From Flavipsychrobacter sp. (lineage in GTDB: Bacteria; Bacteroidota; Bacteroidia; Chitinophagales; Chitinophagaceae), in assembly GCA_017849575.1 (NCBI GenBank), contig JAFIGV010000014.1:248001-312000 (forward strand): 64,000 nucleotides of DNA, written 5' to 3'. The notes below the pieces were generated by a model, which saw only the letters and a list, made by a program, of their open reading frames with translations, searched no databases and had not been told where the DNA came from. Numbering within the stretch: position 1 is the first letter of the stretch; every line of letters starts with the position of its first letter. Shown in pieces: positions 56,630-60,869 of this stretch. Both the position numbers and the translations under genes were made by a program.

Positions 56630-57991
56630 CTAAGATGCGGACTTCCTGATGATCAGCGCAATGTCGCTTTTGCCGGTGCTAAACACCTGGTCGTCGGCAC
56701 GCACATCACGCAGAATGATTCTTTTGGTTTCTCCCTCCACAAAGTCTCTTTCATAAACCGATACACCGTCGCTCATGCGCATGATCCTCACAGAAATACG
56801 ATCAGGAGATTTGCTGATAAAAATTTGTTCCGGCTCGGCTGCGGCATCTATGGTTACTTCTTTGGCGAGATAGTCGTAGTACTTGAGTCCACCCTTAAGC
56901 ATTTCATCGCGCCTACTCTTCAGTTTATCAATAATTTCACGGCCGCTAATGGCAAATATTTCAGGCGGCAAACGATGAATGGCTTTTTCAATCACACCGT
57001 CCGTAAGCCCTGCCTGAAAAGTCCGGATTCCGGATGCCCATTCCTGTCTGTCGAGTTCGTTGAGAAAAAAGCGGTCGAAGTCGTGCACCTTATGATTGAG
57101 CTTTTTAAGATGGTCGGGATGCTTCCTAAAGCCTACCAAATGTTTCATGGCGAAGAGCCGCACAATGCGGGTAAGCAAACCCGTAGAAAGGAAGTAGGCC
57201 TGATCGCGGTCTTGCGGAACCGGGTAAATATATTTTGTAGCGCCAGAGTCTGCAAAAACCCAGTCCCACTGTCCTTTGTGTCGATCCCAGTCGGCCACCA
57301 GCATATCGAAAAGACGCGCAGTAAGCAAACGTTTTTGCATGAGTTTAAAATGACAGGAAGAATCGATGCAATACCGTACGGAGTCGGTTGATTCGGTATG
57401 CAGGTCCTTGCCATTAATATTTTCAGACATCAGCATACACACACTATGGGCCATCACCGGTCTGTACTTTCCGAGCGCCGGATCGTCAGGAACATAGTAA
57501 AGTTGCGCGACCGGAGCGGGTATGGACACCGCTGCACAGAGATCATGTACGGTGAGGATGGCATAGGGATACGCAGCAGAAATCTGATCCTGCACGATAG
57601 CTTCCACAAAGGTTCCCTGTACGGAACCGGGCAAAGCACCGGTCACAATCTTATCTACGGTTCGAAGTACCCATTCAGAGCCGTCGCGATTAGTGATATG
57701 GAGACTTCGGGTCTGCTGACCACCCCCAAGTTTTTCAATGGTAAAGCCGCCCATGGTACTGTTGAGGTGGAAGACCGGCATTCGCACAGGTTCCGACCAC
57801 TCACGCCGGTAATTTTTTCCAAGAAAAAGCCATTTGAGTGGCGTAAGGTGGGCATAGCGGTGACTCGCCGGCACGATTACCGAGTCCTGATGCGGAGTAT
57901 GATTTTCGTTTGACCTGTTGTATGTCCAGCCCAGTAAATGATTGCATACCAGAGCGATCGTCACTATTGCAAGTTTCATCAGCAATCTCAT
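56630..57991 (-). CDS. Exported kinase-fold-like protein of unknown function
   Basis: 453 residues. A hydrophobic N-terminus (MRLLMKLAIVTIALVCNHLL) acts as signal or anchor. Motifs reminiscent of atypical kinases (HipA/Fam20-like) follow in order: WVLRTVDK (Lys114), GTFVEAIVQD (Glu130), FDMLVADWDRHKGQWDW (Asp-x-Asp-Arg-His, about 234-238) and YPVPQDRDQAYF (DRD, about 261-263), which would be the nucleotide lysine, the catalytic aspartate loop and the metal-binding aspartate. I have seen this block in Bacteroidota joined to phosphoesterase or Omp85 barrel domains; here it stands alone. Kinase activity is a guess. The C-terminal 70 residues look beta-rich. Confidence 0.7.
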   Translation of the reverse strand: MRLLMKLAIVTIALVCNHLLGWTYNRSNENHTPHQDSVIVPASHRYAHLTPLKWLFLGKNYRREWSEPVRMPVFHLNSTMGGFTIEKLGGGQQTRSLHITNRDGSEWVLRTVDKIVTGALPGSVQGTFVEAIVQDQISAAYPYAILTVHDLCAAVSIPAPVAQLYYVPDDPALGKYRPVMAHSVCMLMSENINGKDLHTESTDSVRYCIDSSCHFKLMQKRLLTARLFDMLVADWDRHKGQWDWVFADSGATKYIYPVPQDRDQAYFLSTGLLTRIVRLFAMKHLVGFRKHPDHLKKLNHKVHDFDRFFLNELDRQEWASGIRTFQAGLTDGVIEKAIHRLPPEIFAISGREIIDKLKSRRDEMLKGGLKYYDYLAKEVTIDAAAEPEQIFISKSPDRISVRIMRMSDGVSVYERDFVEGETKRIILRDVRADDQVFSTGKSDIALIIRKSAS

Positions 57992-58169: not shown

Positions 58170-60218
58170 ATGAGCATACCCCGGCAGTCATGGCCCGCTA
58201 TTAAGACTATTTTGTTTGCGCTATTGGTGCTTACCACCCATCTGTGCCTGGCGGCAGACAGTACCAAGGTTCGACCCAGGGTGGCGGTACAAACGGTACA
58301 GACGAGCACCAGTTCGACGTTTAATTTATTGCGAAACCTCAACTGGCAGGTGCATATGGCCGACCGGCACGGCAAAACGCTCAACGCCTATTCGCGCCAG
58401 CCGGATACCTTGTTCGAAAGCTTTTTGCCGGATACAGTTGTGCTTTCGGCAGATTTTCGTACAGACACTCTCGGCCTGGGAGACAGACTGGCGCTGCGTT
58501 ACGAGCTTAGCGGGTCGATGGCTGTAATGGCCGATGGACAACCGGTGATCGCTACGGGGAAATTATACAAGGGAAAGGCCCGAAAGTTTTTTACGCACAC
58601 CAAGAGCGGATATATAGCATTGCCGGATGCTGACAGTTCCCTGCATCTCCAGGTCACCTATGTGCCTTCAAAACAGGCAAGGGCTTTTGAACTGACACTA
58701 ATCGTAGAATCGCTGGAACGAGCGATAGCGCGGCACGAAGAAACAGAGGCGGACAACCGGCAAACCTTCGGCACCGGATTTTATTTTCTGGCACTCGGTA
58801 TTGTCTATGGACTATTATTTATGTACTTCCGGGAGAAAAAAGAAAACTTGTACTTTTCCCTGTTTTGCTTTTTAGTGGCCCTTTCCTGTGTATGGGAAAG
58901 TTTTCAGACCGACACATTTACTGACCTCGATAGTTTCTTTAACATCATCGCTTTCGAGATGTTGTCCATTTTCCTGTATAAAGTGCTCAAGGATAAGGAA
59001 AAATCAAAAATACCGCTCCTCGTTATCCTGCTCACCTTTTTAGTGTGCCTCATTCCAGCCGTTCGGTATCGCTATTGGTATGTTTCCGGCGAGCCCATTC
59101 CCATTGTCCTGGCTATAGTATTTGTTGCGTTGTATGGGTACACCTGCATTTATGTACTGTATCTGCTGCTGGCCGGCATAGGTCAAAAAAGGTGGGAGGC
59201 CCGCGTGATTCTTTGGGTATGCCTCACCCCGATTGTACTGCTGGTTATTGATTTTATTGCCATCATTGTGGCCGCAGTTATTGAACGGGGTGTGAAGTCC
59301 GCCAGCATTTTTGCAAGCAGTGTAGAATACTTCATCACTTTCATTTCTTTCTCCTACCCTTTGGCTGCAGTTATCATTTTGGGTCGCCGCAATGGTCTTA
59401 CACAGCAGCAACTTACCCGGCAAATAACATCCATCCAACAACTCTCCGAAGAAAAACTTGCCGTAGAACAGGAGAAGAAGCAAATATTGGAAAAGCAAAA
59501 TGAACGGCTTGAAGCTGAAGTGGCGGAACGTACAGGCGAGGTAGTGCGCCAGAAAGAAGAAATAAGACGGCAGCACGATGAGCTTAAAATCGAAAAAGAA
59601 AAGTCTGACGAACTGCTCCGGAACATCCTGCCGGAGAATGTGGCCAATGAGCTCAGGGAAAAAGGCTTTTCAGAAGCACGGCTGTTCGACAACGTGACGG
59701 TACTATTTGCCGATTTCGTAAACTTTACGGATGCCGGTGAAAGTATGAGCCCTAAGGAACTGGTCAACGAGCTTGATGCCTGCTTCAAAGCCTTCGATGG
59801 TATCATCAGTCACTACAACATAGAAAAAATCAAAACCATCGGCGATGCGTATCTTGCGGTTTGCGGCCTGCCCCAGCCCGATGAAGACCATGCGGCAAAA
59901 TGCGTTTCGGCGGCAATAGAAATTGTAAAGTTTATGGAAGATCGCTTTGCCGTCTATGGCGAGAACACTTTCAGGATTCGGGTGGGTATCCATTCCGGAT
60001 CGGTGGTAGCAGGCATCGTAGGCGTAAAGAAATTTGCCTACGATATTTGGGGCGACACGGTGAATACCGCAGCCCGCATGGAGCAAAACAGCGATCCCGG
60101 CAAGATCAATATTTCTGAAACTACCTATCAGATGATCAAAGACCGTTTTACCTGCCTTTACCGCGGGGAAATAGAAGCAAAAAATAAAGGGGCCCTTAAA
60201 ATGTATTTTGTCGGATAG
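58170..60218 (+). CDS. Membrane-bound adenylate cyclase, 7TM sensor type
   Basis: 682 residues. A signal peptide (to about residue 29) leads to an extracellular domain (30-195), seven TM helices (about 203-405) as in 7TMR-DISM receptors, a coiled coil (410-485) and a class III cyclase domain (505-682). Metal Asp515 (FADFVNF) and Asp559 (TIGDAY) are present; Lys555 and Asp625 (YDIWG) select adenine, and Asn632 and Arg636 complete the site, so it should make cAMP. The extracellular domain would sense a ligand. It precedes an HD phosphohydrolase gene by 60 bp. Confidence 0.9.
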   Translation: MSIPRQSWPAIKTILFALLVLTTHLCLAADSTKVRPRVAVQTVQTSTSSTFNLLRNLNWQVHMADRHGKTLNAYSRQPDTLFESFLPDTVVLSADFRTDTLGLGDRLALRYELSGSMAVMADGQPVIATGKLYKGKARKFFTHTKSGYIALPDADSSLHLQVTYVPSKQARAFELTLIVESLERAIARHEETEADNRQTFGTGFYFLALGIVYGLLFMYFREKKENLYFSLFCFLVALSCVWESFQTDTFTDLDSFFNIIAFEMLSIFLYKVLKDKEKSKIPLLVILLTFLVCLIPAVRYRYWYVSGEPIPIVLAIVFVALYGYTCIYVLYLLLAGIGQKRWEARVILWVCLTPIVLLVIDFIAIIVAAVIERGVKSASIFASSVEYFITFISFSYPLAAVIILGRRNGLTQQQLTRQITSIQQLSEEKLAVEQEKKQILEKQNERLEAEVAERTGEVVRQKEEIRRQHDELKIEKEKSDELLRNILPENVANELREKGFSEARLFDNVTVLFADFVNFTDAGESMSPKELVNELDACFKAFDGIISHYNIEKIKTIGDAYLAVCGLPQPDEDHAAKCVSAAIEIVKFMEDRFAVYGENTFRIRVGIHSGSVVAGIVGVKKFAYDIWGDTVNTAARMEQNSDPGKINISETTYQMIKDRFTCLYRGEIEAKNKGALKMYFVG

Positions 60219-60278: not shown

Positions 60279-60869
60279 ATGCAGTTTCGAGAAGCAAAAA
60301 CCTTCATTCTTAAAAAACTCCGGAAAGAGTTACCCAGGCATCTCTCCTACCACAGTGTGGAGCATATCAAAGATGTGTATCAGTCATCAAGATTGCTAGC
60401 GGCCGAGGAAAAGGTTAAGGGAGAAGACCTTAAGCTGCTGCTTACAGCGGCTTTATTTCATGATTCGGGATTTCTGATCCAGCAAAAGGAACACGAAAAG
60501 ATTTCCTGCGATATAGCCCGGCAGTATCTTCCGGATTTTGACTATACTCCTGAGCAAATAGAACGCATTTGCGGCATGATTATGGCCACACGCATCCCGC
60601 AAACGCCAACAAACAAACTGGAACAGATTATTGCGGATGCCGATCTTGACTATTTGGGTCGTGACGACTTTTTTACCATTGGCGATAAGCTCTTTGCCGA
60701 ACTTTCGGTTTATGGCATGCTCAATACCGAAGATGAATGGAATAGCCTGCAGGTGAGATTTTTGGAGAACCACCACTATTTTACCGACACGGCCATAGCC
60801 CTGCGTAAACATAAAAAAGACCAGCACCTGGCCACCATAAAATCGAAGCTGAAGCAATCCAAATCATAA
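60279..60869 (+). CDS. HD-domain phosphohydrolase
   Basis: 196 residues. An HD domain with YHSVEHIKDVYQ (His25, His29), the central His61-Asp62 in ALFHDSGF, His72 in KEHEKISC, and a late Asp in IIADADLDYLG, enough for a metal-dependent phosphohydrolase. HD proteins hydrolyse nucleotides, including cyclic ones. The gene follows the adenylate cyclase in the same orientation and precedes yitT by a one-base overlap (TAATG). A link to cAMP breakdown is an inference from position. No sensor domain or signal peptide is seen. Confidence 0.85.
   Translation: MQFREAKTFILKKLRKELPRHLSYHSVEHIKDVYQSSRLLAAEEKVKGEDLKLLLTAALFHDSGFLIQQKEHEKISCDIARQYLPDFDYTPEQIERICGMIMATRIPQTPTNKLEQIIADADLDYLGRDDFFTIGDKLFAELSVYGMLNTEDEWNSLQVRFLENHHYFTDTAIALRKHKKDQHLATIKSKLKQSKS

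Follow-up and report, generated by a model that had tools for sequence, protein, structure and literature searches.

What does a stand-alone protein with kinase-like motifs and a membrane anchor do, and on which side of the membrane does it do it? Analysis of the open reading frames in the window, meaning the whole 64-kb stretch of DNA analyzed here, assigned positions 56630..57991 of the minus strand to a single gene, which starts with ATG and encodes a protein of 453 aa (the interval includes the stop codon). A stop codon in the same frame, one codon ahead of the ATG, and the AGGTG ribosome-binding site that precedes the ATG fix the N-terminus of the protein, and the gene has an orthologue, L003. 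All features described below lie on the same minus strand unless other genes are named. The initial annotation had read the motifs WVLRTVDK, ADWDRHKGQWDW and PVPQDRDQAYF as a nucleotide-binding lysine, a catalytic aspartate loop and a metal-binding aspartate. All three were located in this one gene, at residues 107-114, 233-244 and 257-267, confirming the order of basic residue, aspartate loop and metal aspartate. The proposed signal or membrane anchor was also recovered, as residues 2-19 (57935..57988) form a hydrophobic helix in both the sequence and the AF2 model. This helix begins with the positive residues R2 and K6 and could be either a signal anchor or an atypical signal peptide.

Inspection of the N-terminal sequence found no convincing signal-peptidase cleavage site in the window protein, which would be compatible with a kinase that is anchored in the membrane, faces the cytoplasm and uses ordinary ATP. 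We consider this arrangement very improbable, however, since the positive residues ahead of the hydrophobic stretch point to an N-in, C-out orientation, and the fused relatives described below combine a signal peptide with an outer-membrane barrel. In addition, the stand-alone relatives have N-termini that are signal-peptide-like (L007) or carry a lipobox (L109). On the basis of these relatives, export of the window protein from the cytoplasm is very probable.

The AF2 model, built on an 89-sequence alignment (mean pLDDT 92.1, pTM 0.90), contains a kinase-fold core at about residues 69-376 (56864..57787) that matches atypical kinases. In a Foldseek search of the PDB, CtkA ranked first (4.7e-6), followed by HipT-type (1e-4 to 3e-4) and RIO kinases. 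VIA-align gave Z 13.8 against CotH (rmsd 4.0, 248 aligned residues, model residues 70-373), followed by PI4KIIalpha (13.5), CtkA (13.4), HipA (10.9), Fam20A (10.8) and Fam20C (10.7); as Z differences under 1 count as ties, CotH, CtkA and PI4K are tied. The predicted structure thus has the two-lobed fold of the atypical kinase superfamily (Z 10-14 across five families). The kinase-like fold that had been guessed from the motifs is borne out by these three methods, and the comparison with Fam20C, HipA and PI-kinase folds leaves little room for an unrelated fold.

Sequence profiles point to the same group of kinases. The window protein matched no Pfam or NCBIfam family, even at E <= 10, including PF08757 (CotH), PF07804 (HipA_C), PF06702 (Fam20C) and PF00454 (PI3_PI4_kinase). 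The kinase region of the stand-alone relatives was likewise without a Pfam or NCBIfam match, and PF08757 was absent from the seven relatives examined with the Pfam model. The profile search proposed at the outset gave CtkA as the best match in the whole PDB (E 0.014 with 30 sequences and 0.0046 with 89), in register at the catalytic loop, where DRHxxQW aligns with DRHNGNW of CtkA. Against Bacteroidota CotH, hhalign returned E 7.5e-6 in global and 2.6e-4 in local mode over 264-284 columns, with a probability of only 42-66%. For calibration, reversed CotH gave E 0.1-0.7, and the comparison of CotH with HipA, whose distant kinship is accepted, gave E 5e-5; HipA_C (PF07804) reached only 0.017 against our profile. 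The profile-profile match to CotH together with the lack of a PF08757 match makes the domain a remote CotH relative and not a member of PF08757. A PADLOC match to PDC-M03A (E 9.6e-4) was rejected as an identification, because it covers only residues 206-246, just the region of the catalytic loop.

Following the core, residues 378-450 (56642..56860) are predicted to form a seven-strand beta domain (pLDDT 92 when modeled alone). Foldseek found no PDB fold for this domain below E 0.001, and a sequence search of the PDB gave nothing below E 0.3. The domain is conserved, and fused proteins continue from it into the barrel.

Comparison with the known families clarifies what is shared. CotH (PF08757) is the best structural match, its profile similarity spans the whole core, and it has in common with the window protein the W-D catalytic loop and the P-x-D-x-D metal motif; like the protein proposed here, it works outside the cytoplasm. 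The glycine loop differs, being GGGxQTxSLR in this family and RGNTSxxxxKKS in CotH, as do the DRHxxQW loop and the fusions to Omp85 and phosphatase domains. The source genome contains no PF08757 match. CtkA, the top Foldseek and PDB-profile match, has a DRHxGxW loop matching that of the stand-alone forms, although the Pfam model shared by CtkA, HipA and HipT (PF07804) is not matched. HipA itself is cytoplasmic and works with HipB. Fam20 (PF06702) shares the kinase fold (Z 10.8) and a place of work in an exported compartment, without a sequence match; PF06702 was found in 0 of 99 Bacteroidota genomes, a search in which the control genomes were likewise silent. In a survey of the Legionella kinome, CotH, Fam20C, HipA_C and PI3/4 kinases were given as Pfam families of the clan (PMC9758233).

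The domain is widespread in Bacteroidota. It was detected in 117 of 296 genomes (about 40%) of an even sample of the phylum and in 126 of 296 genomes sampled from the same family as the source genome. A genome scan returned at least 590 related loci, and the best 80 of these are nearly all named as Bacteroidota. Among 120 relatives analyzed, three recurring forms with clean boundaries were found, besides a few truncated proteins. The commonest (68/120) is a protein of ~1210 aa composed of a phosphatase, the kinase-fold domain and an Omp85 barrel; 38 are kinase-barrel proteins of ~860 aa, and 11 are stand-alone. These fusions bear out the statement in the initial annotation that blocks of this kind occur attached to outer-membrane barrels. 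The N-terminal domain of the fused forms has purple acid and tartrate-resistant phosphatases and GAP50 as its PDB relatives (5e-9 to 5e-11). The pairing of a kinase domain with a TRAP-like phosphatase recalls Fam20C and TRAP, which both act on secreted phosphoproteins. On the modeled fold and this distribution, we regard the domain as a real, conserved and unnamed kinase-fold family; what is new here is the family and its architectures, not the fold.

Part of this family has been seen before under another description. Heinz and Lithgow (2014) defined the Omp85 subfamilies 'Metallo' and 'noNterm', of which 'Metallo' combines PF00149 with an Omp85 barrel and was called a metalloprotease; the word kinase is absent from that survey (PMC4104836). 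The fused relatives, with PF00149 and the barrel, fit 'Metallo' and were treated there as metalloproteases. The window protein lacks the barrel and ends after the beta domain, whereas its paralogue L002 has both 'Metallo' elements. Work from 2025 on outer-membrane assembly in Bacteroidota mentions neither 'kinase' nor 'phosphoesterase', and we found no account of the kinase-fold domain in the literature, of which few subscription papers and preprints were covered. Pfam and NCBIfam are without a model for a kinase-fold domain of ~400 residues that occurs in about two-fifths of the sampled Bacteroidota genomes.

The stand-alone form had been called unusual. It is indeed the minority form, but it is not unique to this locus: the tree requires at least two changes, so that it is present in at least two lineages. 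The window protein pairs with its same-genus orthologue L003 (59% identity, support 100), and the two next join L036 and L039 (support 85). The source genome (3.6 Mb, Chitinophagaceae-like by its nearest matches) encodes a second copy, L002, a protein of 1214 aa with metallophosphatase, kinase-fold domain and Omp85 barrel. Within the genus, two genomes carry both the stand-alone and the fused form and three near-complete genomes carry neither. Two or three adjacent stand-alone copies were observed at L109:5854-9151, G129:C27:62257-66955 and G223:C1:1087651-1090597, and represent local expansion of the free-standing form; those in L109 have lipobox-like N-termini.

The conservation of the active site bears on whether the protein is catalytic. 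Residues R110, D234, R237 and D263 are invariant in all 120 relatives, and D261 (119), H238 (119), K114 (118) and D236 (117) nearly so, as is the glycine-rich motif GGGQQT at residues 89-94 (57710..57727; G89 in 119, G90 and G91 in 118 each). This near-invariance extends to relatives down to ~28-30% identity, and the glycine loop, basic residue, catalytic aspartate and metal aspartate characteristic of the superfamily stand in order in 117-120 of the 120 rows. Together with the predicted fold, this makes a chance occurrence of the motifs an inadequate explanation. The same count holds for the aspartates, whose loss would have spoken against a kinase. By alignment to the DRH aspartate of CtkA, D236 is most likely the catalytic aspartate, within the loop D234-W-D236-R-H-K-G240-Q241-W242 (57266..57292). 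D261, in the motif D261-R-D263 (57203..57211), is most likely the metal aspartate according to the CtkA and CotH alignments, the latter matching its D-x-D; two further aspartates, D234 and D263, are also invariant. In CotH, the substitutions D228Q and D251A (CotH numbering) give inactive protein (PMC7821199). The proposed nucleotide-binding lysine fared less clearly. The stretch R110-T-V-D-K114 (57650..57664) does provide candidate nucleotide-binding basic residues, but K114 lies just past the model strand 106-111, and R110, within that strand, may take the position of the beta-3 lysine in its place. Q241, present in 115 relatives with N in the other five, replaces the usual catalytic-loop Asn, and together with the possible use of R110 for Lys this suggests a geometry that may differ from that of active kinases.

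These substitutions would fit an exported pseudokinase, an option raised in the initial annotation. In that case the fold would bind a nucleotide or ligand without any transfer and would support the fused phosphatase-kinase-barrel protein as a scaffold or allosterically, in the way that Fam20A assists Fam20C. The window protein departs from the fused consensus at 6 of 52 strongly conserved columns, three of these changes being E188M (hinge region), D240G and E424R. The near-invariant hinge-region E188 (118/120) is lost in the window clade, being M in the window protein and S in L003. A partnership would also agree with the phylum sample, in which 9 of 11 genomes with the stand-alone form also encode a fused one, compared with 106 of the 285 remaining genomes (Fisher 0.004, uncorrected for kinship). 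Degenerate paralogues do occur: L021 (1393-3921) has D236N plus D261N, the second copy in L109 (7478-9151) has D236S, and both are likely true pseudokinases within the family. The window protein and its 59% orthologue, however, keep K114, D236, D261, D263 and the glycine motif, so that by its residues the window protein does not look like a pseudokinase. Moreover, the change from N to Q is family-wide and hence no sign of decay. We therefore judge the pseudokinase explanation to be unlikely, though not negligible. D240G is shared by 9 of the 11 stand-alone members and spans both lineages, and most of the 11 lack E424, which indicates that the free-standing copies carry a signature of their own; CtkA likewise has G at the D240G position of the loop.

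Gene neighborhoods were compared between the forms. Among 42 phosphatase-kinase-barrel loci, genes for HD-PycTM (28), SdiA-regulated (23), class III cyclase (15) and PPK1 (10) proteins recur, in contrast to the kinase-barrel loci, where HD-PycTM was found in 1 of 22. The source genome and G001 share one gene order: SdiA-regulated lipoprotein, fused protein, HD-PycTM, PPK1 and class III cyclase (L177:2805-11759, on contig C25 of the source genome, and L178:2384-11486). This five-gene run recurs across Bacteroidota, and its gaps and overlaps of a few bases make it very probably one operon. Its cyclase and HD-PycTM match the PycC and PycTM models and resemble components of Pycsar that have been combined with a polyphosphate kinase; a role in Pycsar defense is not claimed, because the arrangement with SdiA-regulated, PPK1 and Omp85 genes differs from the reported pair.

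The stand-alone gene lies outside any such run, and its neighbors differ between loci. In the window, a class III cyclase with a 7TM-like region (58170-60218) and an HD-domain protein (60279-60869) are encoded divergently from it; the latter is one of only two proteins of its kind in the genome, the second of which adjoins the fused gene. A functional link to these neighbors had some appeal, given that the fused form is flanked by cyclase and HD-PycTM genes. It was set aside, as G002 has an orthologue of the HD gene (77%) without any kinase-fold copy, and the stand-alone gene of G001 is instead next to LigD and unrelated genes.

We infer the side of export, the catalysis and the phosphate chemistry from a fold, conservation, architectures and gene neighborhood that were computed. 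The reaction cannot be read from a kinase fold, which pseudokinases, AMPylators and glutamylases also have. Our favored reading, which we hold to be probable, is an enzyme that faces the periplasm, either secreted or anchored in the membrane, and that belongs to an unnamed family of Bacteroidota. It is predicted to combine an atypical kinase fold with a beta domain and would likely act as a phosphotransferase. With similar confidence, the structural models and profiles are best read as a new family of extracytoplasmic phosphotransferases nearest to CotH. Such an enzyme would most likely transfer a phosphoryl group, transfer of a nucleotidyl or different group being less probable. The acceptor would be a protein, either secreted or of the envelope, or else a periplasmic lipid or glycan. 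D236 would be catalytic, D261 with D263 and Q241 would hold the metal, and R110 and K114 would hold the donor phosphates. The stand-alone protein may cooperate with its fused paralogue in the source genome or work in parallel with it. With a kinase-fold domain and a phosphatase in one outer-membrane protein, that paralogue could control the phosphate carried by a target in the envelope. If active, the family would pair a kinase with a phosphatase in the periplasm, attached to the outer membrane.

A variant of this phosphotransferase reading differs only in the substrate: a PI4K-like lipid or glycan kinase of the outer envelope that, with the fused phosphatase, would determine how far an envelope lipid, or an acceptor resembling lipid A, is phosphorylated. 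PI4KIIalpha ranks second among the structural matches, the Omp85 barrel seats the fused forms in a lipid membrane, and PAP2-type phosphatase genes lie <6 kb from several barrel-fused loci. The tied scores of CotH, CtkA and PI4K and the lack of a constantly adjoining lipid-synthesis gene nevertheless leave this variant somewhat doubtful.

Free ATP is scarce in the periplasm, which makes the donor the central question for a phosphotransferase acting there. The polyphosphate kinase in the operon of the fused paralogue suggests an alternative to ATP, and polyphosphate would be a candidate donor. An entire ATP-independent extracytoplasmic phosphotransferase system can be envisaged, with another donor such as polyphosphate made by the operon PPK1, control by the cyclase and HD-PycTM, and a stand-alone protein that modifies soluble or inner-membrane targets, but this is a speculative scheme with a low probability. 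If the enzymes are active, the operon would provide a genomic link to polyphosphate and cyclic-nucleotide enzymes and would bring the choice of donor outside the cytoplasm into focus. Low-phosphate operons of Flavobacterium include a PPK-like gene, and the available text of that study holds no link to the kinase-fold family (PMC8115612).

Finally, mobile origins were considered and rejected: there was no phage match, and the five plasmid matches (21-33% identity) are all from Bacteroidota. In a plasmid of Hymenobacter radiodurans (L173:1903-6550), a fused-type gene of this family encoding 1252 aa is preceded, at a distance of 100 bp and on the same strand, by a gene for an undecaprenyl-diphosphate phosphatase.
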